A stretch of 64,000 nucleotides of DNA from Halothermothrix orenii H 168. GTDB taxonomy: Bacteria > Bacillota > Halanaerobiia > Halanaerobiales > Halothermotrichaceae. The notes under the pieces are model-generated. The model did no database searches, was not told the origin of the DNA, and saw only the letters and a program-made list of their open reading frames with translations. Where the stretch lies: contig NC_011899.1 in the NCBI RefSeq assembly GCF_000020485.1, positions 2,488,501 to 2,552,500 of the forward strand. Reading direction: 5' to 3'. Below, piece by piece: positions 1,801-59,801 of the stretch (the first letter of the stretch is position 1; the number at the start of each line of letters is the position of its first letter). The translations under genes and the position numbers were made by a program.

Positions 1801-1891
1801 TTCATCCTTTGTTTTATCCTTTTTTTATAAATTAAATTTACAATTTGCTTAAAAATCATAGGTATTTTACACTTTAGAGGTTCCTTTAAGG

Positions 1892-3190
1892 CTAAGAATA
1901 TTTCATCAAACTTCCTATAATCAAATATAAATAAATTTGAAATATAAATGACTCTATACCTGTAATAAACACTCCAATAATAAGGAAAGTTGACAAAAAA
2001 AGTAGCACACTATTCAAAAAATCATAATTCACTTCACTACTAAATTGCATCATCATAAGGGCTTTTCTCATACACATTATAATAATTGAAATAAATAATA
2101 TTAATCCCACAATTCCACTATTTATTAAAAGAAACAAATAAAGATTATCGACAGGATCATATGGAACACTGGGATTTCCTTGAATAAATTTAAAAATGTG
2201 CTGCCCCCCACCTAGATAACCCCATCCTTTCCCAATAAAAATATGAACAATTCCTTTACTCTTTACCCATGATGTCATTAGCGTCTTCCACTTATTAATC
2301 CTAACAAAAAAAGTATTAGTATACAAATATGTTCTTAACACTCCAATATTACTACTAAGTAAATTATTTTCAATATAAGGTACTATTATATTTAATGCAA
2401 ATACAATAACCAAAGGAATAATTAAAGAAAGTTTTAGAAAAATATTATATTTTTTTCTTTTAAGTAATAAACAATAAAACAACATAACTACTAAAGCCAA
2501 TATACTAGTTCTAGAAGTAGATATTAATATGCCTATAATTGACATAATAGAAACTATGTTGGGCATAAAACCTTTTTTTAATATGTTAAAACTTAATAAT
2601 ATAAGGCAAAACATACCGAAAGTTACAGGTTGTCTGAAAATAGAAGAAGCTCGAATATTACCAGAACGGATTAAATTTGTTTTCATTCCATCTGCCACAA
2701 AATTTATACTGGAAATAAATTCTGTGCCTAAAAAAAACTGTAATAAAGCAAAACCAATAATAAAAAGAGCTAAAAATGAAAGAATATTAATAATTTTATT
2801 AATAAATTTTTGCCAATTAATATCATGTATAATTACTATAAATATTATTAACCCATAAAAAAAAGTTACTTTTACTCCCCATAACCACTGTATTATTACA
2901 ATATTTTTATTTACAATTCCAAAATATAGATTTAAGATTAGATTAAATACAAGTAAATAAATTATAATTATAATTTTTCCCCCAAAATTAGTAATATGTA
3001 TTTTTTTCTTTTTGATTAAATATAAAATAGATAGAGCTAAGATAAAAATAAACAATACTTCTTTCCACACATTTAATATAGGTTTATTAAGAGTATTATG
3101 ATTTATAACTTTTATAACACCATGAAATGGAGCTAACAAAAAAAATAGTAATAATAACTTTAAACTAATATTTGCCATTTTAAATCTCAT
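1892..3190 (-). CDS. O-antigen ligase/polymerase-like membrane protein (Wzy type)
   Basis: A 432-residue, very hydrophobic protein with roughly ten or more transmembrane helices. It has the layout of the Wzy_C/O-antigen ligase family: a large non-cytoplasmic loop in the second half (about residues 270-350) between helix clusters, and an RTSILALVV helix start preceded by GILIST. It would polymerise lipid-linked repeat units outside the cytoplasmic membrane. It sits between two GT4 genes and upstream of none with a competing role, so it is the best polymerase candidate in the locus. ATG 3190 has an AGGGTGA site upstream; MANISL four codons on is an alternative start. Confidence 0.75.
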   Translation of the reverse strand: MRFKMANISLKLLLLFFLLAPFHGVIKVINHNTLNKPILNVWKEVLFIFILALSILYLIKKKKIHITNFGGKIIIIIYLLVFNLILNLYFGIVNKNIVIIQWLWGVKVTFFYGLIIFIVIIHDINWQKFINKIINILSFLALFIIGFALLQFFLGTEFISSINFVADGMKTNLIRSGNIRASSIFRQPVTFGMFCLILLSFNILKKGFMPNIVSIMSIIGILISTSRTSILALVVMLFYCLLLKRKKYNIFLKLSLIIPLVIVFALNIIVPYIENNLLSSNIGVLRTYLYTNTFFVRINKWKTLMTSWVKSKGIVHIFIGKGWGYLGGGQHIFKFIQGNPSVPYDPVDNLYLFLLINSGIVGLILFISIIIMCMRKALMMMQFSSEVNYDFLNSVLLFLSTFLIIGVFITGIESFIFQIYLYLIIGSLMKYS

Positions 3191-3221
3191 GTTTTTTTCA
3201 CCCTAAATTTTTTCCAACTTT

Positions 3222-4397
3222 TTATAATGAATTGTATTTTATTAACTTCAAATAATTTTGAATAACTTTATCAATATTATAAGTATCACTAACCCGTCGA
3301 AAACCTTCATTCCCTATCTTTTTTCTTTTCTTCTTGCTTTTATATAATTCTAAAATTGCATTTTTCATTTCTACTATTAAATTTTCTTCATTAACTTTAA
3401 GACCAGTTTTTCCATCTTCAACAATATAACTTGGTCCTCCACAATTTGTAGTAATTACAGGTTTTTTAACACTCCACGCTTCAATAATAGTTCTGCCAAA
3501 AGATTCTGGTCCTCCATATTTTGTAATAGAACTTGAAATAATAACATCACAATTGTAAAAAAATTCTAATGGATCTTCTATCCATCCAATAAAACTTACT
3601 TTATCTTCTATACCAAGTTTTTTAATTAATTCTTTTAATTCCAGATAATAATTATACTGTTCAGTGCTTTCTTGTGCTGAACCAGCAATTAATAATTTAG
3701 CATTAAAATTGTTTATATTTTTATTAGCTAAATTGAAAGCTTTTATTAATTTATCCAACCCCTTCCACCTAGCAAATCTTGCTGCAACACCATAAATTAT
3801 CTCATTATTTTTAGCATATTTATGTCGATAAATTAATCTATATTGTGAATTAATAATATCATTTACTATTATTCCATTAGGAATAACTTCATACTTGTTT
3901 CCACCCTTATAAAAATTCTTTAAATGTTCAGATACACAAACTATATTTTTCACAAAAGGTTCCAATAATGTTTTGGCAATTTTTTTAAAACGATAATCAC
4001 GTAATATCAAAATAAAAGGAATATTAGTTAAAAAACAAGATAAAAAGCTTATCATATGACTTATATCTGTATTACTAAAAACAATATGTGGTTTATATTG
4101 TAATATTTCAATAAAAACTAGTAAGTTACCATACAATAGTTTACTTATACCTACTATATTTTTATTTAACTTTCCCAAACTAATTACTTTAAATTTAATA
4201 TTTTCTTTATTTAGTATATTTTTCATTTTACTGTTTTCAACTAAAAATAAAACTTCATATTCTTCTTTTTCACTAATTTTTTTAAATATATCCACTATGG
4301 ACTTTTCAGCCCCTCCAAATTGAGTTTCTACATTTATTATTAAAATTCTTTTAATAGAAATCCCCCCAAAAAAACTAAAGTATTTTTTTATAAACAT
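3222..4397 (-). CDS. Glycosyltransferase family 4
   Basis: About 390 residues, GT-B fold. Near the N-terminus is RILIINVETQFGGAEKS, with the glycine-rich GGAEKS loop. The C-terminal domain has the E-x7-E donor motif ESFGRTIIE preceded by GGP and followed by VITTNCGGPSYIVEDG. The start is uncertain. ATG 4397 (or TTG 4400) overlaps the upstream gene and lacks a visible ribosome site. In contrast, a GGGGGGA tract (4361-4367) lies just before an in-frame ATT at 4355, from which the protein would begin at the conserved first strand (IKRILIINVE). Substrate unknown; part of the polysaccharide island. Confidence 0.82.
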   Translation of the reverse strand: MFIKKYFSFFGGISIKRILIINVETQFGGAEKSIVDIFKKISEKEEYEVLFLVENSKMKNILNKENIKFKVISLGKLNKNIVGISKLLYGNLLVFIEILQYKPHIVFSNTDISHMISFLSCFLTNIPFILILRDYRFKKIAKTLLEPFVKNIVCVSEHLKNFYKGGNKYEVIPNGIIVNDIINSQYRLIYRHKYAKNNEIIYGVAARFARWKGLDKLIKAFNLANKNINNFNAKLLIAGSAQESTEQYNYYLELKELIKKLGIEDKVSFIGWIEDPLEFFYNCDVIISSSITKYGGPESFGRTIIEAWSVKKPVITTNCGGPSYIVEDGKTGLKVNEENLIVEMKNAILELYKSKKKRKKIGNEGFRRVSDTYNIDKVIQNYLKLIKYNSL

Positions 4398-44511: not shown

Positions 44512-46197
44512 GTGAGAAAGGTTACAATTATAGTCTTGATAATGTTGTTGTTACTTGGCGTGTCTGCAGGTGTGTCTGCTATTGAGGAAGAATTTTATCG
44601 TCTTGAAGGTATGTCAATAGACCTAAAAAACATTATTGATGATGAGTATACTGACTTTATGACATTTTCCAGTGAACTTGTAGATGTAGAAGGCACCCAG
44701 GTATATCTAAAAATGGGGGAGAATTCCACTAAAGCGCCACAGGTTGGGATGGTAACAAATCTGGCGGGCTTTAAAGTAGCTGCTTTCTTCGAAAATGGGA
44801 TAAATAAAAATGAAAATGGGGAAAACATATATTTCAAAAACGAGGATGATACCCAGAATATATTGGATGAGCTAGACATACTTTCTATCAATCAATCAGA
44901 TTTACAGGTTGCTCCCAATAAAGATGTAATTGTAGAAATAGATGAAAAAGCAGAAGGAGCAACCCATTCAGACAATACAGAGCTTTCTGGACGGGCAATT
45001 TTATCCAGATCTTTTTCTTCTTTTGATCTGGGACTTAAAATTGATCTGAATAAAGATTCTTCGAAACAAAAGGAAATAAATAGTGAGAAAGCTACAATTA
45101 TTACTTATAGCACAGACCAGAAAGACAATATTGTCGAAGAAACAATCATCGAAGCAACGGAAGAATTTAAATATACAGATGACACCCTGGATATGACCTT
45201 TGGCGTTGATGTCCGAAAGCCTATAGGCCCCGGTAACTTAGTTGTTGGTGGTGGAATTAAACCTAGCAAAAGAACCCAAGAAATCAATTATAGCAGTTTT
45301 GATTCTAATTTTACTGAAGACTATATAAATGACAATACTTCTACTGATAGTTATAAATATGATTATGAATATCCTACCAGTTCTTATGTTTCACCTGTAT
45401 TTGTTAATTTAAAATATGAATACCCGGTAAAGATTTTAAATAAAGAAGGCATCTTCAGGATAAGTGGAAACTTTGAAACAGGTAGCGATGAAGATACTGT
45501 GAAATATTTTACTGAAAGCAGATCAATTTACAAAGCTGACGGTAGTGTTACCTCTGAATTTATTAATACTGAAGAGGAGGAATATAACCTGAGTACCGGA
45601 CTAAGCAATTATGTGTTTGCTGTAGGTACTGAGATAGATCTATCTACTAATACCATTTTTACCATTGGAGTTAAATATTTATATGAGGGTACTGAACAAG
45701 TCGTTTCCAGTAATGGTTATACTGAAAAGGATGTCAATAATAACTATAACACTGACGGCAGTTTGAATGAAGGAACTTCTTATATAACTACTACAAAAGT
45801 TTCCAGTGATTATACATTCACGGAAAAAACAACACAAAATAGTATAGTTATCCCTTATGGTCTGGAAACAGAGATTAATTCCAAACTCACCCTCCGGTTG
45901 GGAGGTACTAGTATAATTTACAACTCCTATAAAGAAGAAATAACTGAGGTTACAGAAGGGTATCATTCAGTAACAGAAACTGTATATAAAGACGGAACTC
46001 AGCTAGCACCGGTTGAAGACAACAAAGATGGTTACAGAGAGGAATATAATGAAACTGAAAGTAAATTTGATACATATACAGACTTTAACCTTGGTTTAAG
46101 CTATCAGCTCAATGAAGTTGCAACCCTCGATATGAATAGTGGTGGAGATTTAGCCAATATTTCCTACTGGGATGTTAGTCTTAACCTCAAATTTTAA
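44512..46197 (+). CDS. Putative outer-membrane beta-barrel protein, unknown function
   Basis: A 561-residue secreted protein: signal peptide MRKVTIIVLIMLLLLGVSAG ending near VSA. It is rich in Ser/Thr/Asp/Glu/Tyr with many alternating polar/hydrophobic strands (for example FTIGVKYLYEGTEQVV, LTLRLGGTSIIYNSYKEE). It ends in VSLNLKF with a terminal Phe, the usual barrel-assembly signal. No family is recognised. The start is GTG 44512 after AGGGGG. It is monocistronic, closed by a strong terminator at 46226. A barrel is inferred from composition and C-terminus only. Confidence 0.6.
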   Translation: MRKVTIIVLIMLLLLGVSAGVSAIEEEFYRLEGMSIDLKNIIDDEYTDFMTFSSELVDVEGTQVYLKMGENSTKAPQVGMVTNLAGFKVAAFFENGINKNENGENIYFKNEDDTQNILDELDILSINQSDLQVAPNKDVIVEIDEKAEGATHSDNTELSGRAILSRSFSSFDLGLKIDLNKDSSKQKEINSEKATIITYSTDQKDNIVEETIIEATEEFKYTDDTLDMTFGVDVRKPIGPGNLVVGGGIKPSKRTQEINYSSFDSNFTEDYINDNTSTDSYKYDYEYPTSSYVSPVFVNLKYEYPVKILNKEGIFRISGNFETGSDEDTVKYFTESRSIYKADGSVTSEFINTEEEEYNLSTGLSNYVFAVGTEIDLSTNTIFTIGVKYLYEGTEQVVSSNGYTEKDVNNNYNTDGSLNEGTSYITTTKVSSDYTFTEKTTQNSIVIPYGLETEINSKLTLRLGGTSIIYNSYKEEITEVTEGYHSVTETVYKDGTQLAPVEDNKDGYREEYNETESKFDTYTDFNLGLSYQLNEVATLDMNSGGDLANISYWDVSLNLKF

Positions 46198-50717: not shown

Positions 50718-50741
50718 ATACCCCGGTTTTCACCGGGGTAT
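50718..50741. terminator. Hairpin downstream of porin-like gene
   Basis: ATACCCCGG and CCGGGGTAT form a perfect 9-bp stem with a 6-base loop, 68 bases after the porin-like stop. A U-run is weak on the minus strand, so termination is likely but not certain. Confidence 0.55.
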
Positions 50742-50808: not shown

Positions 50809-51882
50809 TTAGAAAGGATAGCTTAATTCAACACCAACTACACTGTTATAAAAATCACTATAGAAGAGGGCCTGGTCTGAAGCCAGGGTAAATAACCCTT
50901 TGAGTTCCATGGTCAGATTACTACCCAGCTGGTTCTGATAACGGGGCATCAGAGCCAGACCACCATCGTTGAGGCAGTAGGCAGTCATTAAACCCGCTTC
51001 AGAGAATTGATTGATACCATAACTGGCATTACCGAATAACAGGGTTAATTCTTCATCGGCATTCGAAATATTAAGGGGCATTTCATGGAGCATATCACTG
51101 ACCCTCTGTTTTTTAACCCTCAGGACTTCCCCCTGAAGGTACACGCGATTATTATTATTTCTTAAAAAACTATAATCACAGCCGGCCAGATAGGCCAGGT
51201 CAGATTCTCCATTATCATCACTGTAATAACCGAAGGCCCCGTAAATTCCCAGGGGATCAAGGTCTCCTTTAACAGTGACCCCAAAACGTCGGTCTATAAT
51301 TGTATCAAAAGTATCCTTATACTGATCCTGAACATAATTGGCTGAAACATCAAAATTATTGTTGATAAGGGTCCTGCCCCTCAGTCCAAATTTTACCCGG
51401 TCAGAATCAAAGGATGTACCCGGGAAAGAAGATACCAGTGAGATATTGGAATTCCAGTTTAAGGGGATAAAGGCCTCAATACCATCTACATATTTTGCAC
51501 TCCCCTCTTCATTCATGGCCTCAGCACCGAGGCTGTAATCAACCGGATTTACCAGGGAGCCGAAGGACCAGGACACAGGCTGGCGGCCGATGGTTAAATC
51601 CATCTCCTTAAAGCGGTGTTTCAGGTATAATTTTTTAAAGCCAGGACCTCCAGGAACCGTGAAATCAGCCTCAATCCTGGCCTCCGTATTCCCGGTTTCA
51701 GGGACGAATATCTCAAGTTTTAACTGTTCATATAAATCATAATAAAACCCGCTGTTCTCTACAGAAGTTGCTGTAAAACCGGTTTTAACCTCCCCTCCGA
51801 ATTTAACTTCAGCGGCAACCGGTAGTGAAAGCAAAAACACACTGATTATAATCGGTACTAAGTACTTAAAACTTCTTTTCAT
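50809..51882 (-). CDS. Porin-like outer-membrane beta-barrel protein
   Basis: A 357-residue protein with signal peptide (MKRSFKYLVPIIISVFLLSL ending PVAA) and a barrel-like pattern of alternating strands: VKFGGEVKTGFTATS, EARIEADFTVPGG, KLYLKHRFKEMDLTIGRQP. It ends VGVELSYPF with terminal Phe. The LTIGRQPVSWSFGSLVNPVDY segment resembles DUF1302/porin-like barrels that accompany LolA-like carriers. ATG 51882 is behind GGAGGG. Probably the outer-membrane end of the transport cluster upstream, though a 463-base gap (51883-52345, with only the hairpin at 52255) separates it and may hold its own promoter. Confidence 0.75.
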   Translation of the reverse strand: MKRSFKYLVPIIISVFLLSLPVAAEVKFGGEVKTGFTATSVENSGFYYDLYEQLKLEIFVPETGNTEARIEADFTVPGGPGFKKLYLKHRFKEMDLTIGRQPVSWSFGSLVNPVDYSLGAEAMNEEGSAKYVDGIEAFIPLNWNSNISLVSSFPGTSFDSDRVKFGLRGRTLINNNFDVSANYVQDQYKDTFDTIIDRRFGVTVKGDLDPLGIYGAFGYYSDDNGESDLAYLAGCDYSFLRNNNNRVYLQGEVLRVKKQRVSDMLHEMPLNISNADEELTLLFGNASYGINQFSEAGLMTAYCLNDGGLALMPRYQNQLGSNLTMELKGLFTLASDQALFYSDFYNSVVGVELSYPF

Positions 51883-52254
51883 CTTTTTTTCCCTCCTTTT
51901 TTCTGTTATAGCTCCAGAAAGTTCCATGAATAAACCACCTTAAAATACACAAATTAACTGCCTTGAAAATAAATAACTTCCTGGAATTAATTATTATTCC
52001 TTACCTATAAATATTATCCATAGAATTTGAATTACCTTCCCCCAGAAACTGAAAACTTTAACCACATAAGGTATCTACATAATTAAAATATATATCTGGC
52101 CAAAACAAAAAATCAACTATCTAAAATTGTTATATAGAAATTTCAGGGAAACATAAAAAAACGGGAATAACAGCACCTTAATATTTTTTGGAGTGTCATA
52201 TTCCTGAAATCAGTAGCATATCTCTTGTTATATAGATATCTCTTATTATAATCA

Positions 52255-52282
52255 CCAGACCCCGGCTGAAACCGGGGCCTGG
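52255..52282. terminator. GC-rich hairpin between LolA-like and porin-like genes
   Basis: CCAG-A-CCCCGG and CCGGGG-C-CTGG pair around CTGAAA with one internal mismatch. On the minus strand no clear U-run follows, so it may be a partial terminator separating the barrel gene from the permease operon. The core resembles the hairpin at 50718. Confidence 0.5.
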
Positions 52283-52345
52283 TTAACAATTTTTACTCAG
52301 GAATTATTTTGAATAATTAATTTGGCAAAACATTATACAAAGTCC

Positions 52346-53092
52346 TCAGTTTAAATTTTGCAGAGTAAAGGTGTTTTCCGGTATTTCGGGATTAAAATTA
52401 ATTGATTTAACCCTGAAGATGGTCCGTGAGTTTTTTATTAGTTTATCTTCAGTAATATACTCAGTCGGATAGTACCGCCCCTCAATCTCTTCAACCTTAT
52501 CAACCTTCATAACCTTTAATAACCGGCCACTCCGGGCATATAGCTCTTCCTTAAGGCCAATAAAACGCTCTTTATCTATCCAGGCTACCCTCCTGTAATA
52601 GGAAACCTCGGCCCCTTCCCGGGCTATACCTTCCATTACATAACAGGGGCGCCCCTGATATTCCTCTTCTCTCAATATTTTAAAATCATAAAGTTCGGTT
52701 AATTTGTCTGATTCCATAATATCCTTATAGGAGAGATCACTCCCCATAATACCCTGTTCCAGCATATGGCCCGATATCTTTACAATGTCCTCGGCGTCGG
52801 GGAAGAACATAAAGAGGTTGTCATCCCTCTTCAAAAATTTAGTCCCCCTGTCGAGGGGATTAATAAACTCCACCAGGGCATTTTTCCCATCTGTTATTGA
52901 GACCATGGTTTTAATAATCTTCCTGTTACCTTTAATAATTATCATTTCAGACTCAATTTTAGCTGACCGGACATATTCATTATCATCCCGCCTGTTTATA
53001 ATCTCTTCAGGTGTTATGGCTATAGACAGGCTAGAAAACACAACAGTCATTGTCATTATCAGTAATAGTATTCTAGTAGTTTTATTAAACAT
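52346..53092 (-). CDS. LolA-like outer-membrane lipoprotein-sorting/lipid-carrier protein
   Basis: A 248-residue exported protein: signal peptide FNKTTRILLLIMTMTVVF, cleaved near SLSIA, then a LolA/LolB-like half-barrel of the PF17131 type. Visible segments are SEMIIIKGNRKIIKTMVS, LFMFFPDAEDIVKI, GSDLSYKDIMES and CYVMEG. Such proteins ferry lipoproteins or lipids between membranes and are typically encoded beside FtsX-type or RND transporters. ATG 53092 has GGGGG upstream. It follows four ABC permease genes, so it is the likely periplasmic acceptor. Confidence 0.8.
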   Translation of the reverse strand: MFNKTTRILLLIMTMTVVFSSLSIAITPEEIINRRDDNEYVRSAKIESEMIIIKGNRKIIKTMVSITDGKNALVEFINPLDRGTKFLKRDDNLFMFFPDAEDIVKISGHMLEQGIMGSDLSYKDIMESDKLTELYDFKILREEEYQGRPCYVMEGIAREGAEVSYYRRVAWIDKERFIGLKEELYARSGRLLKVMKVDKVEEIEGRYYPTEYITEDKLIKNSRTIFRVKSINFNPEIPENTFTLQNLN

Positions 53093-53138
53093 TTCCTTTA
53101 CCCCCTTAAAATTAAATTTTTCTTCTCTCACCGGTGTA

Positions 53139-54398
53139 CTATATTTCACGCAGGGCTTCAGTTGGCTTAAGACGGGCTGCCCTCCTGGCCGGAATAAGGC
53201 ACGCCAGGGAAGTAACTACAACACCCAGGACAAAGGCAAATATCATATTGTCAAAAGAGAAGACGGGATAGATTACCGGACGCATCAAAATATCTTCTCC
53301 CATTCCTTCCAGGGCTTTGGTGTAATCAATTCCTGTCACCGCCACCACTCTGGTAATTAAACCACCCAGTAAAGCCCCGATAAAACTACCGACCACACCC
53401 ATAACTCCACCTTCAAGAACGAAAAGCTGCAGTATCTGCCTTTTCCCCAGTCCCAGGGCAGACATCATTCCAATCTCCCGGGTTCTCTCCTTAACAATCA
53501 TAATCATTGAATTAATAACCACAAAACTCGCTAAAACTACCAGGAAAACATAAATCACATTATAAATGTTTTCAGCCATTTTCATCAACCTGATCATACC
53601 ACTGGAATCATCCCAGGCCCGGATGGCATAATTGTTCAGTCCACCCTGCCTCTCAAAGACTTTCCTGATACCGGGGAGATATTCACCTGCCCTGTTTAAA
53701 TCCGGAGTCACCAGCAGTAGTTCAGTAGCCTGGTCCGGCATATAAAGGGCCTTTTGAGCCACATCAAGGGGAACCATAAAAACAGTCTCATTCAAAAGTT
53801 TTAATCCACTTTCAATCCGCCCTACAATTTTAAAGGTAGTGGCCTGAAATGAATTAAATGATGTGGTATATAAAACCGTAACCTTTTCCCCCACTCCTTT
53901 ATCCAGTTTGGCCAGAAGCTCAGAACCAAGCACAATCTCTTTCATGCCCCGTCGGGGAAACCTGCCTTCAACCAGTAGTTCATCAATATCAGTAAACTCC
54001 TTTTCCTTCTCCGGATCAACACCCCAGCCCATCATCTTAATAAGTTCATCATCAGTACTGACAACTGCCCCAAATTTAAGCCGGGGCAAAGCCATATTTA
54101 TACCTTCCAGTTCTTCCAGTCTGGCCACCATCGAGGATATGCCTTCCCCCTCAAAACCATCAACCGGATAGGCCAGTGATAATAACCTCTCTTTTTTTAA
54201 GTATTCCTGTTTAACAATTCTAATATGGCCACTGTCATAATATATATAATCAGAATAAATCGATCCTATAAAACCAGAAATCAAACCCCGGGCAAAAACA
54301 ACCACCGCAACCGAGAAGACAATAGCAGCAATGGAAACAGCCGTCCTCAGTTTTTGCCGGTAAAGGTTTTTATAGGCCAGTTTTGCCAGATATTTCAC
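53139..54398 (-). CDS. FtsX/LolE-type ABC permease (copy B2)
   Basis: A 419-residue permease: N-terminal helix (about 20-42), a large extracytoplasmic MacB-like domain, and three C-terminal helices with EIGMMSALGLGKRQILQLFV and CLIPARRAARLKPTEALREI. Clearly paralogous to the gene at 56387 (same length; both begin the domain with SGHIRIV or SGHIKIV then PVDGF). Pairs with the permease directly upstream. GGGGGTGAG precedes ATG 54398. Confidence 0.9.
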   Translation of the reverse strand: MKYLAKLAYKNLYRQKLRTAVSIAAIVFSVAVVVFARGLISGFIGSIYSDYIYYDSGHIRIVKQEYLKKERLLSLAYPVDGFEGEGISSMVARLEELEGINMALPRLKFGAVVSTDDELIKMMGWGVDPEKEKEFTDIDELLVEGRFPRRGMKEIVLGSELLAKLDKGVGEKVTVLYTTSFNSFQATTFKIVGRIESGLKLLNETVFMVPLDVAQKALYMPDQATELLLVTPDLNRAGEYLPGIRKVFERQGGLNNYAIRAWDDSSGMIRLMKMAENIYNVIYVFLVVLASFVVINSMIMIVKERTREIGMMSALGLGKRQILQLFVLEGGVMGVVGSFIGALLGGLITRVVAVTGIDYTKALEGMGEDILMRPVIYPVFSFDNMIFAFVLGVVVTSLACLIPARRAARLKPTEALREI

Positions 54399-54411
54399 TT
54401 CAACTCACCCC

Positions 54412-55659
54412 CTAACGGTGATAGATAGCCTTAACCGGATCCTTTCGGGCGGCCCATCGTGCTGGAAAAATACTGACCAGCAGGGATACAATAACACTAT
54501 AACTAAAAACAAAGATGAAGGAACCGGGATTAAAGCCCCCGTATATCCGTCCCAGGACAGGGATACCCATGGAACTGATGGCATCTTCCCCTCCCAGGGA
54601 AAATATATCCACTCCATAAAAAACTAAATAGGCAACGACCGCTCCACCCACAAGGCATCCAATGATACCTCCAATAAGGCTGACTCCAACAGCTTCCATA
54701 ACAAAAACGATAACTATCTCCCACTGTTTCAGTCCAAGGGCCTTCATCATCCCGATTTCTTCCATTCTTTCCAGGGCAGCCAGGACAACGAAATTGATTA
54801 TTCCTATAGCTGCTATTAACAGAATAATACCTAATATCATCTGGGTTTCAACCCTCTCGGCTTTGTTCAGGGCTACAATGTACTCGGCCGACTTACGCCA
54901 GGAGAAGGCCCTTAAAGAAGATCCGGCTTCTTGCAAATCATCTGATAACAACCTCGCTGTCTCGACGGCTCTTATCCTGTCTTCTACCCTGATAATTATC
55001 TGACTGACCATGCCCCTGACATTTAAAGCCTGCCGGGCTATTTCAAGGGGAACAAAAACAATATTTTCATTGATACTGGGGTTGGGTGAATCAACCAGAC
55101 CAGATATCTGAACATCTATTGTATTAAAGGTTCCTTCTTTACTTTTAATTACCAGAGTTATATAGTCCCCTGTTTTTAAATCCATCAACTTGGCCAGGGT
55201 TTTACCCATGACCGCGGTGGACTTATTTCCTGTCAAAAATTCACCCTCAACAAGATACTCCCCTGCCCTTAAAACCTGTGAATAACTTTGAGGATCGATT
55301 CCCTGGGCCACTACCGGTATCTCTTCAATACCGTTATTCAGGGTAGCACTGAAGGTCAACACCGGGGTCAAACCCTTTAAACCATCTACCTTTTGGAGAA
55401 AAGTTAATAATTCCCTGTCAGGCCTGATTAAATTTTTAAGGGGCAGGTCCTCCCTCTCCTCCCAGTAATTTTGATTAACAATCTGAATGTGGCCTGACTC
55501 AAAATCGATAACATTTTCAAAAGATTTATCTACCATCCCTATAAGGAGGGAATCGGTCATCAGGTAAATAACCACTGCCAGGGCAATTACAGCTGCTGTA
55601 ATCAGGGTTCTTTTCCGGTGGCGGGTCAGGTTCTTAAAAGCCAGTTTAACCAGAAACAT
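54412..55659 (-). CDS. FtsX/LolC-type ABC permease (copy B1)
   Basis: A 415-residue permease, [20 protein letters not shown] at the N-terminus, one plus three helices and an extracytoplasmic domain starting ESGHIQIVNQNYWEEREDLP. Coupling segment MEEIGMMKALGLKQWEIVIV; ends WAARKDPVKAIYHR. Paralogous to the gene at 57658. ATG 55659 (GGAGG upstream) overlaps the ATPase stop by 14 bases, tying the pair to that ATPase. Confidence 0.9.
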   Translation of the reverse strand: MFLVKLAFKNLTRHRKRTLITAAVIALAVVIYLMTDSLLIGMVDKSFENVIDFESGHIQIVNQNYWEEREDLPLKNLIRPDRELLTFLQKVDGLKGLTPVLTFSATLNNGIEEIPVVAQGIDPQSYSQVLRAGEYLVEGEFLTGNKSTAVMGKTLAKLMDLKTGDYITLVIKSKEGTFNTIDVQISGLVDSPNPSINENIVFVPLEIARQALNVRGMVSQIIIRVEDRIRAVETARLLSDDLQEAGSSLRAFSWRKSAEYIVALNKAERVETQMILGIILLIAAIGIINFVVLAALERMEEIGMMKALGLKQWEIVIVFVMEAVGVSLIGGIIGCLVGGAVVAYLVFYGVDIFSLGGEDAISSMGIPVLGRIYGGFNPGSFIFVFSYSVIVSLLVSIFPARWAARKDPVKAIYHR

Positions 55660-56350
55660 CCTGGCCTTTCCTCCTTTCATCCCTGGTAACCCGACCATCC
55701 CTGATTTCAATTAGCCTCCGGGCATAATTCATAACCCGGGGGTCATGGGTGGAAAAAATAAAAGTAGTCTTGAATTTTTCATTCATCTTAAGCATTACCT
55801 TCAGGACATCTTCACTGGTCTGAGAATCAAGGTTAGCTGTTGGCTCGTCGGCCAGGACCAGTTTGGGATGTTTAACCAGAGCCCTGGCAATAGCTACCCG
55901 CTGTTTCTGTCCCCCCGAAAGCTCATTGGGTTTTCGATCTTCCAGACCTTTAAGGCCTACGGCCTCCAGAATATCCAGGACCTTATTCCTTATTTTTTCT
56001 TTATTACCTTCCACTAAACGGAGGGCAAACTCAACATTTTCATAGGCACTCAAGACCGGAATTAAATTATAGCTTTGAAAAATAAAACCGATATTAAACC
56101 GTCTGAGCATGGCCAGTTCTTTCTCCGAAAGATTACTAAGTGTATCCCCATTGAAATACACCTGCCCTTCAGTAGGCCTGTCCAGGCAGCCTATCATATT
56201 TAAAAGAGTGGTTTTACCTGACCCTGATGGGCCAAAAATAGTGGTAAATTCACCCTCTTCAACTTTAAGGTCAACCCCTCTTAAAGCAGGTACCTCTACC
56301 TTACCCTGCTGATAAATTTTCTTGATGCCGTTAAGTTCCAGTAATGACAT
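55646..56350 (-). CDS. LolD/MacB-type ABC ATPase
   Basis: A 234-residue ATPase with Walker [13 protein letters not shown], signature [17 protein letters not shown], Walker [13 protein letters not shown] and H-loop STHDP. It belongs to the LolD/MacB/FtsE (o228) group that powers mechanotransmission permeases. ATG 56350 is seven bases from AGGAGG. It is the only ATPase in the cluster, between two permease pairs, so it may serve both. Confidence 0.94.
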
Positions 56351-56386
56351 AACCATTCCTCCTTACTTTAATTAAAAGGTCTAAAA

Positions 56387-57646
56387 TTATATTTCCCGTA
56401 AGGCTTCCGTCGGTTTCATGCGAGCTGCCCTCCTGGCTGGAATAAGACAACCCATGGTAACAACCAGTACTCCCAGAAAGAAAGCAAAAACAGTATTTCC
56501 AACTGAGGAAACTGGATAAATAATTGAATTAAAAACTATCTCCGGGCTGAAACCTGCTGTCGCTGAGGAAAAATTAAGGCCGGTCCTGGCAAAATAGTCA
56601 GTTATAACTGAGCCCAGAATAGCCCCGATCAGACTGCCGATGGTTCCTATTATACCGCCCTCAATCAGGAAGAGCTTTAAGATACCTCTGCTCTCCAGTC
56701 CCATAGCTGACATCATACCTATTTCCCTGGTCCTCTCTTTAACAATCATAATCATGGTATTGATAACCACAATACTGGCCAGTAATACCAGAAAAATGTA
56801 AACCTGGTTATAAATCAGTTTAGCCAGCTCCATATAGGGTAAAAGGTCACTGGTTTCCTTATACCCCAGGGCCACATATCTATTTTCTTCTCCCCGTTCT
56901 GCCAGAACCTTTTTCACTTCGGGAAGGATCTGGTCAACCAGCTTTTTATCAGAACTTACCAGTAACAATTCTGTCGCCTGTCCCTCCATATATAAAAGGC
57001 GCTGGGCCTGGTCAAGGGGCAAAAAAAAGGCAACTTCATTGAGCAGCTTAATACCGGTCTCCAGCCGTCCGACTATTCTAAAAGTAACTCCTCTTAGGGA
57101 GTTGAAGGATGTTTTGAAAACAATCGTTACTTTATCACCAACCTGACGGTTTATTTTATTCAACAACCCACTTCCCATCACCACTTCGAGGCGACCCGGT
57201 TTAATCATCCGTCCCTCTACCAGGTAATCTTCAATACTGGTAAAGGCTATCTCCTGTTCTGGATTAACCCCCCAGCCATTCATGGTTATCAACTCTTTGT
57301 CGGTGCTTACCATGGCCCCAAACTTCAGTCTGGGAATAACCATCTCCACCCTGTCTATATTTTTCAAATCAGAAGCCATTTCCTCCACTCCCTGACCTTT
57401 AAAGCCATCTACCGGATAATTAAGGGGAAGGAGACGCTCCTGCTGGAGATAATCCCGGTTCACTATCTTAATATGTCCTGAATTATATTGAATATGATCA
57501 GCAGAAATACTATCAATTAACCCTACAATATACCCCCGGGCAAAAACAACAATCATTACCGAAAAGGCAATGGCCACTATGGAAACGAGAGTTCTTAGCC
57601 TGTGCCTGAATAAATTTTTGAAGGCAATTTTAAAAAGATACGACAT
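56387..57646 (-). CDS. FtsX/LolE-type ABC permease (copy A2)
   Basis: A 419-residue permease with the same one-plus-three helix plan as the gene at 53139 and near-identical ends (RAARMKPTEALREI). The extracytoplasmic domain begins SGHIKIVNRDYLQQERLLPL. EIGMMSAMGLESRGILKLFL is the cytoplasmic coupling segment. GGGGGG precedes ATG 57646. Arose with 57658 as one pair of a duplicated set. Confidence 0.9.
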   Translation of the reverse strand: MSYLFKIAFKNLFRHRLRTLVSIVAIAFSVMIVVFARGYIVGLIDSISADHIQYNSGHIKIVNRDYLQQERLLPLNYPVDGFKGQGVEEMASDLKNIDRVEMVIPRLKFGAMVSTDKELITMNGWGVNPEQEIAFTSIEDYLVEGRMIKPGRLEVVMGSGLLNKINRQVGDKVTIVFKTSFNSLRGVTFRIVGRLETGIKLLNEVAFFLPLDQAQRLLYMEGQATELLLVSSDKKLVDQILPEVKKVLAERGEENRYVALGYKETSDLLPYMELAKLIYNQVYIFLVLLASIVVINTMIMIVKERTREIGMMSAMGLESRGILKLFLIEGGIIGTIGSLIGAILGSVITDYFARTGLNFSSATAGFSPEIVFNSIIYPVSSVGNTVFAFFLGVLVVTMGCLIPARRAARMKPTEALREI

Positions 57647-57657
57647 TTTACACCCCC

Positions 57658-58893
57658 CTAACGATGATAAATCGCCTTAATTGGGTCCTTGGCTGCCGCC
57701 CAGTAAGCTGGAAGAATACTCGATAATAGGGAAACAACAATCCCGAAGGCAAAAACCATTATAAAGGACGAAGGATTCCAGATCCCATAAACCTTACCCA
57801 GGATCGGTATACCGAATGAAGTCATATCCATGTTGGTCATTATTGAAAAATCTATCCCGTAGGAGTTTAAAAACCAGACACCAATTGCTCCCATAAGGAT
57901 ACCGACTGAGCCTCCGAGGATTCCTATGCCGGTTGATTCCGCAACAAACACAAAGACAATCTCTTTGACCCGTAGACCCATAGCCTTCATCATCCCGATT
58001 TCTTCCATTCTTTCCAGGGCCGCCAGGATAACAGTATTGATAATAGCAATGGCAGCAATTATTAAAATAATAGTTAACACCAGCTGGTTACCTGCATTTT
58101 TAGCTCCCGCTATGGTAACAGCCTCCAGTTCACTCCAGGGGTAAACCCCCAGTCCAGTCTCGGTTTTCCCCAGTTGCTTTTTCAGTTCCCTGGCAGCCAT
58201 ACTGGCCAGTTCCTTATCTTCCAGCCTTACAATAACCTTGCTCACCCGGTTACCGACACCAAGGGTCTGTTGGGCAATATCAAGGGGAAGGTACACAATA
58301 TTACGATTAACATTGGGGTTAGCGGTGTGAATCAAACCAGATATTTCTGCTTCGATAGTATTAAAGGTTTCATTTTTATCTTTTACCAGCAGGGTGATAT
58401 AATCCCCTAACTGTAATTTCATCAATTCAGCAAGCCGCTTCCCCATAACCACTTTGTATTCTCCCCGGGAAAACATCTCCCCTTCGACAAACTTATCTTT
58501 AATGGGAAAGACCCGGGTAAATTTATCGGGAATAATCCCCTTTCCCATAACCGGAAGTTCATTAAACCCATTGTTTAGCCGGGCCGGAAAATTAAGTTCC
58601 GGTGAGCTGCCATAATACCCCGGTACCTCCTCTATAGAAGTAAAAATCTGGCCTCCACTTATAAGGTTTTCCAGGGGCAGTTCTTCCTCTTCCTCCCAGT
58701 ATTCCCGGTGGGCAAGTTGAAGATGTCCGGCCTCATAATTAATGATAGTATCATAGGACATTTCGGTCATCCCGCCGATTAATGAATCAAGGAGAAGAAA
58801 AAAGAATATGGCAATTGCAATAATACTTGCTGTTATCAGGGTTCGATTCCGGTGGCGCACCAGGTTTTTAAATGCCAGTTTAGCGAGAAACAT
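57658..58893 (-). CDS. FtsX/LolC-type ABC permease (copy A1)
   Basis: A 411-residue permease beginning MFLAKLAFKNLVRHRNRTLI, strikingly like the gene at 54412. Extracytoplasmic domain EAGHLQLAHREYWEEEEELP, coupling segment MEEIGMMKAMGLRVKEIVFV, end YWAAAKDPIKAIYHR. GGGAGGA precedes ATG 58893. First permease after the TetR-type gene, 150 bases downstream of it with no clear promoter between. Confidence 0.9.
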   Translation of the reverse strand: MFLAKLAFKNLVRHRNRTLITASIIAIAIFFFLLLDSLIGGMTEMSYDTIINYEAGHLQLAHREYWEEEEELPLENLISGGQIFTSIEEVPGYYGSSPELNFPARLNNGFNELPVMGKGIIPDKFTRVFPIKDKFVEGEMFSRGEYKVVMGKRLAELMKLQLGDYITLLVKDKNETFNTIEAEISGLIHTANPNVNRNIVYLPLDIAQQTLGVGNRVSKVIVRLEDKELASMAARELKKQLGKTETGLGVYPWSELEAVTIAGAKNAGNQLVLTIILIIAAIAIINTVILAALERMEEIGMMKAMGLRVKEIVFVFVAESTGIGILGGSVGILMGAIGVWFLNSYGIDFSIMTNMDMTSFGIPILGKVYGIWNPSSFIMVFAFGIVVSLLSSILPAYWAAAKDPIKAIYHR

Positions 58894-59042
58894 TTATCCT
58901 CCCCCCTCTGATGTTTTACTTTTCTGGAATGGCATATCTCATTCCCCCTTTAACTTACCTTTAACTTAGCCATTAAGAATTAAGCAAATTCCATGAGAAT
59001 AAATTAACCTCTGACCATAATCATTAAAAAGGCAAACGGCAA

Positions 59043-59663
59043 CTATTTGCTCTTGTTTTTAATTCCATTTTCAATAACATACAGCATTTTATCGATTAAA
59101 ACCATATCATCCATATCTACCTTGCCATCTTTATAAACAAAGTCTGAAAGAGCCAGGTTTAAGGTAATTAACATATGGGCTACAAGGTCTATATCGACCT
59201 CACTATCGATCTCCCCTTTTTTTATCCCGTCCTCCAGGAGAGCCCTGAAAAACCTTGCCGTCCGGGGTCTTTGTTCTCCGATGATTTCAACATAGATTTC
59301 ACTGTCCTTATTACTGATGAGCTTATTGGCAATAGCCTCCAGCCTGGGGTTTTCCCGGGCATACTTTATTCCCCTGACATACAATTGTCGTAATAACTCA
59401 AAGAAATCATACTCATTCTGCTTCTCTAAAACCGGGCCCAGGTATTCAAACTTCCTTTCGGTACCCAGCTCCAGAATATATTTATATAAATCCTTTTTGT
59501 CCTTAAAATACTGATAAAAGCTACCACTCGCTATTTTTGCCCTTTTAATTATCCTGGTAACACTGGCTTTATGATAAGGATAAGCGGCAAACTCATCGAG
59601 GGCTGCTTCAATGACCCTTTTCTTTTTTTCTTCTGGAAGGTTAAAAAATGTTGAAGTTGGCAA
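59043..59663 (-). CDS. TetR-family transcriptional regulator
   Basis: A 206-residue repressor: N-terminal helix-turn-helix (KKKRVIEAALDEFAAYPYHK then ASVTRIIKRAKIASGSFYQY) and an all-helical ligand domain. The true start is TTG 59663, nine bases after GAGGGGGG; the longer frame to 59756 runs over the operator. First gene of the Lol-like cluster, transcribed from a consensus promoter with a palindromic site just downstream, so autorepression and control of the cluster are likely. Confidence 0.9.
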   Translation of the reverse strand: MPTSTFFNLPEEKKKRVIEAALDEFAAYPYHKASVTRIIKRAKIASGSFYQYFKDKKDLYKYILELGTERKFEYLGPVLEKQNEYDFFELLRQLYVRGIKYARENPRLEAIANKLISNKDSEIYVEIIGEQRPRTARFFRALLEDGIKKGEIDSEVDIDLVAHMLITLNLALSDFVYKDGKVDMDDMVLIDKMLYVIENGIKNKSK

Positions 59664-59734
59664 TATATTCACCCCCCTCTCATTTAAATTATGTAACTTT
59701 TTATACCCCAATATACCCATTATGGTGAACCCGC

Positions 59735-59762
59735 CTTCATATGAATCTATTTTCATATGAAG
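59735..59762. promoter_or_regulatory. Palindromic TetR operator candidate
   Basis: CTTCATATGAA (59735-59745) and TTCATATGAAG (59752-59762) are perfect inverted repeats six bases apart; each contains the 10-base palindrome TTCATATGAA. The pair starts about ten bases after the -10 of the tetR promoter. Confidence 0.7.
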
Positions 59763-59772
59763 CTTTATTCAC

Positions 59773-59801
59773 ATTATATACCCTTTTTATATAAATGTCA
59801 A
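59773..59801 (-). promoter_or_regulatory. Consensus sigma-A promoter of the tetR-permease cluster
   Basis: On the minus strand perfect TTGACA (59801-59796), 17 bases and perfect TATAAT (59778-59773). It would be very strong if not repressed. Confidence 0.85.

Follow-up and report, generated by a model that had tools for sequence, protein, structure and literature searches.

A gene cluster comprising a LolA homologue, two permeases and one LolD-type ATPase, found in most Halanaerobiales, is already in print as a 'Lol system' (Antunes 2016, PMC5007114), and a 2024 review traces it to LolCDE transferred from gammaproteobacteria (PMC11784454). A second precedent is the Ame set of Castellaniella defragrans, which consists of a DUF1302 barrel, a DUF1329 protein of the LolA superfamily, AmeC and an HAE3 pump of the resistance-nodulation-division (RND) type; deletion of AmeABCD lowers tolerance to apolar monoterpenes and increases Nile Red accumulation (PMC6394551). 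Here we analyze an eight-gene cluster of Halothermothrix orenii H 168 located in a 64,000-nucleotide stretch (the window; contig NC_011899.1, 2,488,501 to 2,552,500) that encodes a TetR regulator, two permease pairs, a single ATPase, a LolA-fold carrier and an outer-membrane barrel. The published cluster, as far as the available part of its description goes, very probably belongs to the same operon family; that part makes no mention of the barrel, the TetR, an extra pair or a non-Lol phylogeny. We favor, with a probability of roughly 55%, the reading that the cassette is an autoregulated system, driven by an ATP-binding cassette (ABC) transporter, that exports a lipid or an apolar or acylated small molecule across the envelope; the permease trees and the missing LolA say that it is not a Lol system, and its two permease pairs are old paralogues that were brought together.

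The host is a salt-loving, two-membraned relative of Clostridium. All eight genes are on the minus strand (59801-50809), in the order tetR, P1, P2, ATPase, P1, P2, carrier, barrel, where P1 and P2 are the first and second permease of a pair:

59773..59801, minus strand: predicted sigma-70 promoter, TTGACA-N17-TATAAT, 12/12 consensus matches
59735..59762, minus strand: candidate TetR operator read from the sequence, a perfect 11-bp inverted repeat, CTTCATATGAA-N6-TTCATATGAAG
59043..59663, minus strand: tetR (PF00440)
57658..58893, minus strand: permease P1 of the upstream pair, 411 aa (FtsX and MacB_PCD)
56387..57646, minus strand: permease P2 of the upstream pair, 419 aa (FtsX and MacB_PCD)
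55646..56356, minus strand: ATPase of the LolD/MacB/DevA type, the only one in the cassette, 236 aa (PF00005, ABC_tran)
54412..55659, minus strand: permease P1 of the downstream pair, 415 aa (FtsX)
53139..54398, minus strand: permease P2 of the downstream pair, 419 aa (FtsX and MacB_PCD)
52346..53092, minus strand: LolA-fold periplasmic carrier with signal peptide, 248 aa (PF17131)
50809..51882, minus strand: outer-membrane beta-barrel with 18 strands, signal peptide and C-terminal Phe, 357 aa (AlphaFold2 model)
50718..50741, minus strand: terminator-like hairpin 3' of the barrel gene, a 10-bp stem with a T-rich tail (consensus match only)

The upstream pair (58893-56387) is pair A of a first-pass annotation of this DNA and is labeled Hore_B in our trees; the downstream pair (55659-53139) is its pair B and is labeled Hore_A. 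The starts of the third permease (55659), the carrier (53092) and the barrel (51882) were corrected; the open frame of tetR reaches 59756, but translation more likely starts at the TTG at 59663, which has a GA-rich ribosome site. Pfam FtsX is found in 4/4 permeases and MacB_PCD in 3/4, and the downstream P1 gene shares 14 nt with the ATPase gene. The first-pass annotation had listed the same eight genes in this order and direction, and every part proved to lie where, and on the strand, it had been placed; its description of a TetR-linked cassette spanning three compartments in a diderm Firmicute is likewise supported.

The carrier matches PF17131 (LolA_like) with 183 bits (cut-off 30), and its model (predicted local distance difference test, pLDDT, 93) is nearest to 4z48, 3buu, 9tp6 (P. 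gingivalis LolA3) and 3bk5 (Z 25-26); against canonical LolA it gives Z of about 12-13, and against LolA and LolB together about 11-13. In LolA3 of P. gingivalis the LolA arginine is missing and binding to LolB is slight (PMC13103446), and deletion of lolA3 in F. johnsoniae has no phenotype (PMC11885536). Both the carrier and the barrel start with signal-peptide-like stretches, and the last residue of the barrel is Phe. For the barrel Pfam gives a sub-threshold Porin_4 match and nothing above threshold, and a search of the PDB by sequence found no relatives; its AlphaFold2 model, built with 40 aligned relatives, has 18 strands (pLDDT 90.6) and a fold of the OprD/Occ/AlgE type (Z ~23), a match that covers several porin families and names no function.

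The same genome encodes a second set with related parts (L005, 3364-8262; G000:C1:908363-913261) in the order TetR-MMPL-LolA_like-barrel. Its carrier is 32% identical to that of the cluster, and its barrel, which matches DUF1302, is homologous to the cluster barrel (21%, E 1.5e-6), that is, the two loci appear to use the same carrier and exit with a different motor. L005 is also an example of an AmeABCD-like set from a diderm Firmicute. In Gammaproteobacteria, including Vibrio, carrier-P-P-ATPase cassettes have a PF17131 carrier and an adjoining barrel-sized gene. On an E. coli plasmid, ATPase-permease-LolA_like genes are located beside genes for an acyl carrier protein, a ketoacyl synthase and a FeeM-like N-acyl amino acid synthase; a tblastn search of plasmids identified distant permeases only. 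This plasmid region (NZ_CP060058.1, IncK2/Z; L175, 617-11003) is a lipid biosynthesis and export cluster that also includes a PfkB-like kinase and a 399-aa protein. In the aryl-polyene cluster, a LolA-like/RND/LolB-like set handles a lipid (PMC8253772). The literature yielded almost nothing on PF17131 cassettes. Taken together, the L005 homology, the AmeABCD phenotypes, the gammaproteobacterial cassettes, the plasmid lipid cluster and the LolA3 data favor apolar or acylated export. The best NCBIfam match of the TetR, Bacillus-type FadR (62 bits, under the cut-off of 200), we count on the same side although it is sub-threshold.

In the mechanism that we propose, TetR, with the operator and promoter seen in front of its gene, would repress the operon, and a hydrophobic inducer, perhaps of the acyl type, would relieve this repression. 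The ABC transporter would hand cargo from the inner membrane to the carrier, as expected from LolCDE/MacB mechanics; the carrier, by its fold and signal peptide, would ferry this cargo over the periplasm and pass it to the 18-strand barrel, whose role would be that of the outer-membrane exit. In this scheme the cassette would operate as AmeABCD does, with an ABC transporter taking the place of the RND pump. The upstream pair would be a second, diverged permease lineage placed between tetR and the ATPase gene, and both pairs probably dock on the one ATPase, which would widen or split the substrate range.

The inverted repeat sits just behind the sigma-70 promoter, on the start-site side and before tetR. 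A search of the genome (a single contig of 2,578,146 bases, used for all whole-genome searches) found no other near-perfect copy of it, and similar half-sites (TTCATATGAA/TGAATRTGAATTCA) precede many orthologous tetR genes; because the operator is unique in the genome and similar half-sites precede the orthologous operons, the TetR most likely controls just this operon. A wider TetR regulon was considered and set aside, as the genome has no second near-perfect operator. At this locus the barrel gene may have its own transcript, because ~460 nt separate it from the carrier gene.

Across 80 loci from relatives, the basal arrangement is TetR-ATPase-P1-P2-carrier-barrel, and this core is kept in Halanaerobiales, in other Bacillota and in one metagenome-assembled genome (MAG) of WOR-3. 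We counted the genes behind close-homologue pairs that had enough sequence behind them (n = 47): the carrier follows the pair in 37/47 and the barrel in 36/47, and four of the exceptions are the upstream pairs of double loci themselves; the ATPase is located just upstream of the pair in 47/51. The first-pass annotation had granted that its reading would fail if the LolA-like and barrel genes were not conserved with the permeases; by these counts they are. A phylum-wide search of 398 Bacillota genomes identified the P2 type in 42. The WOR-3 operon (L034, contig JAUVJU010000062.1) is complete and, because it is nested in a Bacillota clade, is best read as horizontal transfer or mis-binning; the same MAG also holds a deeper cassette (L218).

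The first-pass annotation had matched A1 to B1 and A2 to B2 and concluded that a two-permease unit was duplicated around one ATPase. The matches are correct: the two P1 permeases are 49.9% identical over 415 aa and the two P2 permeases 56.1% over 419 aa, and P1-type and P2-type permeases share 27-29% identity. The duplication did not survive the permease phylogeny. A concatenated P1+P2 tree groups the upstream pair with complete operons in a well supported clade from which the downstream pair is excluded; forcing the two pairs to be sisters costs 168 log units, and the approximately unbiased (AU) test rejects a local duplication (p-AU 1e-7). The pairs thus represent separate, old paralogous lineages, each of which occurs elsewhere with its own ATPase, carrier and barrel. 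Their rejection as sisters makes the two-pair layout a merger of old paralogues rather than the product of a recent duplication. The annotation had also named pairs with separate ATPases in relatives as evidence against its reading; that is what relatives show for the ancestral state. The nearest whole operon (L062 in G008; identities of 58% for tetR, 76% for the ATPase, 55/60% for the downstream pair, 68% for the carrier and 41% for the barrel) lacks an upstream pair, which makes insertion of that pair between tetR and the ATPase gene the probable course of events. No relic of a second ATPase was found in the gaps of the cluster, and FastTree trees of the ATPase, carrier, barrel and TetR resolve too weakly to prove the source lineage of each.

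One ATPase with two pairs, as the first-pass annotation had described it, is a real layout that recurs. In G057 (L113) the order is TetR-P1-P2-ATPase-P1-P2-carrier-barrel with a single ATPase, and G173 (L111) and G139 (L112) have the same layout on shorter contigs; the three genomes belong to another Bacillota family. A single clade for the two pairs of the G057-type loci is rejected (p-AU 4e-5); they belong to different subclades, and all of them nest in the larger clade that holds the upstream pair of the window. From this placement, the layout arose at least twice, the G057 type being the second origin. A likely intermediate is found in UBA5388 (L028), TetR-ATPase-P1 (frame-broken)-P2-ATPase-P1-P2-carrier-barrel; here two intact ATPase genes flank a first pair whose P1 is broken into two frames (1814-3293). 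In two Pseudomonadota genomes (L208 and L212), P1 and P2 are fused in a single protein of 834-838 aa.

Between the two pairs of the cluster, no stretch is better conserved than the coupling region, with 80% identity vs 43-52% for the periplasmic domains; such a pattern is compatible with a common motor serving diverged intakes, without proving it. Several observations weigh against the exporter reading and the sharing of its motor. The coupling region is conserved family-wide, so that its identity is not proof of a shared ATPase. The operon has no substrate gene, and for this reason the cargo is deduced by analogy. AmeB, as a DUF1329 protein, belongs to another, though related, branch of the LolA superfamily. 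Finally, Lnt-like genes are present in 38/38 Halanaerobiales genomes (over the cut-off in 35/38), so that some carrier must serve lipoprotein traffic, and the present one could do so.

With respect to the motor, the upstream pair might use another ATPase of the genome, or might be decaying or non-functional, which we regard as unlikely and which would be compatible with any substrate. The genome contains 66 ABC_tran matches, and Halanaerobium saccharolyticum has an orphan pair with no adjacent ATPase (L047) as well as a separate unit with TetR and ATPase (L071). However, both frames of the upstream pair are intact and well conserved, with 71% identity across P1+P2 to the closest relative. Only one cassette-type ATPase is encoded in the genome, the runners-up among MacB/LolD-like ATPases being 51% and 48% identical and adjoining their own permeases, and the same layout is kept in the three genomes described above.

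With respect to the cargo, the cassette might be the Halanaerobiales Lol pathway or a convergent replacement for it, in which triacylated lipoproteins would be extracted by the permeases and handed on by the carrier, and the barrel would be an incidental component. This is the proposal in print (PMC5007114 and PMC11784454), and the nearest named families (LolC/E and LolD), the nearest solved permease structures (LolF/LolE), the LolA fold of the carrier and the Lnt-like genes all agree with it; nonetheless, we judge it unlikely. LolA (PF03548) is found in 0/38 Halanaerobiales genomes at E 0.001, with E. coli and other controls positive. In a tree of E. coli LolC/LolE, proteobacterial LolF-type proteins, permeases of proteobacterial LolA_like cassettes and P1/P2, the Lol proteins form a single clade (support 100) with P1 and P2 outside; some branches are long, which limits how exactly P1/P2 can be placed among the non-Lol lineages. 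Orthology of P1/P2 to LolC/LolE is rejected by AU tests in all four pairings (P1+LolC, 9e-47; P2+LolE, 5e-5; P2+LolC; P1+LolE), and an origin by horizontal transfer of LolCDE is rejected by these trees. The term 'LolC/E-type' that the first-pass annotation used for the permeases holds at the level of the superfamily and no further, given their position and their scores of 115-145 against the curated lolCE profile (cut-off 362); the ATPase scores 232 bits against TIGR02211 LolD (cut-off 308). Five near-complete genomes have no ABC cassette, which would be odd for an essential pathway; in two of these, G014 and G019, the sole PF17131 locus is MMPL-carrier-barrel, and in a third, G023, the contig ends at the carrier. 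In addition, a dedicated TetR and barrel are no part of Lol, and there are several PF17131 cassettes per genome.

It is improbable that the cassette is a MacB-like efflux or tolerance pump for solvents, bile-salt-like amphiphiles or antimicrobial peptides, in which the barrel would serve as exit duct and the membrane-fusion protein would be replaced by the LolA-like protein: control by a TetR whose operator lies at its own promoter, MacB_PCD domains in the permeases, the action of AmeABCD in tolerance and weak matches of the TetR to AcrR-type regulators as well would suit such a pump, but the operon has no HlyD/MacA-type adaptor or TolC, and a MacB-type transporter with an HlyD-like adaptor is a separate locus of the genome (L006).

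In the literature, this cluster type is the sole Lol pathway of diderm Firmicutes and is attributed to horizontal transfer of LolCDE; the trees and the missing LolA go against this and reopen the matter of how these bacteria sort outer-membrane lipoproteins. A constant carrier and barrel with swapped motors points to a general route for lipid/hydrophobe export, and the repeated one-ATPase, two-pair layout is a testable case of motor sharing. More speculatively, there may be a widespread, mis-assigned class of trans-envelope hydrophobe exporters with a constant carrier and barrel and interchangeable motors (heterodimeric ABC, homodimeric ABC and MMPL), in which sharing of one ATPase by two diverged permease heterodimers would have arisen at least two independent times and given machines with two substrate intakes. 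As far as the literature searched shows, what is new is the placement outside Lol, the pattern of swapped motors and the repeated merger of two pairs on one ATPase.

Elsewhere in the window (44512-46197), a 561-aa protein with a signal peptide, barrel-like repeats and no Pfam match adjoins the GH97 and alpha-amylase genes that flank the cluster.

Among known systems, LolCDE/LolDF-LolA shares with the cluster the type VII ABC fold and a LolA-fold carrier; in contrast, the cluster has permeases of another clade, a PF17131 instead of a PF03548 carrier, its own barrel and TetR, and a non-universal distribution. In MacAB-TolC terms, its ATPase is a separate gene and its operon has no MacA-type adaptor. 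AmeABCD (PMC6394551) also combines an inner-membrane pump, a LolA-superfamily periplasmic protein and an outer-membrane barrel in one operon; however, its motor is RND, its other parts are DUF1329 and DUF1302 proteins and it has a fourth protein, AmeC, whereas the cluster has an ABC motor, PF17131 and an unclassified barrel. Judged as an AmeABCD-like HAE3 set, the cluster has the LolA-superfamily protein and barrel in the operon, with an ABC motor in place of the RND/MMPL pump. The BBJ23-29 cluster of Borrelia, proposed for a non-polar ligand (PMC13078400), likewise has ABC, LolA-like and outer-membrane barrel components; unlike the present cluster, it has a single homodimeric permease, an Omp85 barrel and TPR proteins, and so is closer to a second ABC cassette in the same genome (L004, 234-10471; G000:C1:2108233-2118470). 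L004, with a close copy in G005 (L251; permease 56%, ATPase 65%), encodes a two-component system, a TPR protein, an ATPase, a single permease, a PF17131 carrier, two barrel-like proteins and a hydrolase-Omp85-type protein, a make-up that resembles BBJ23-29.

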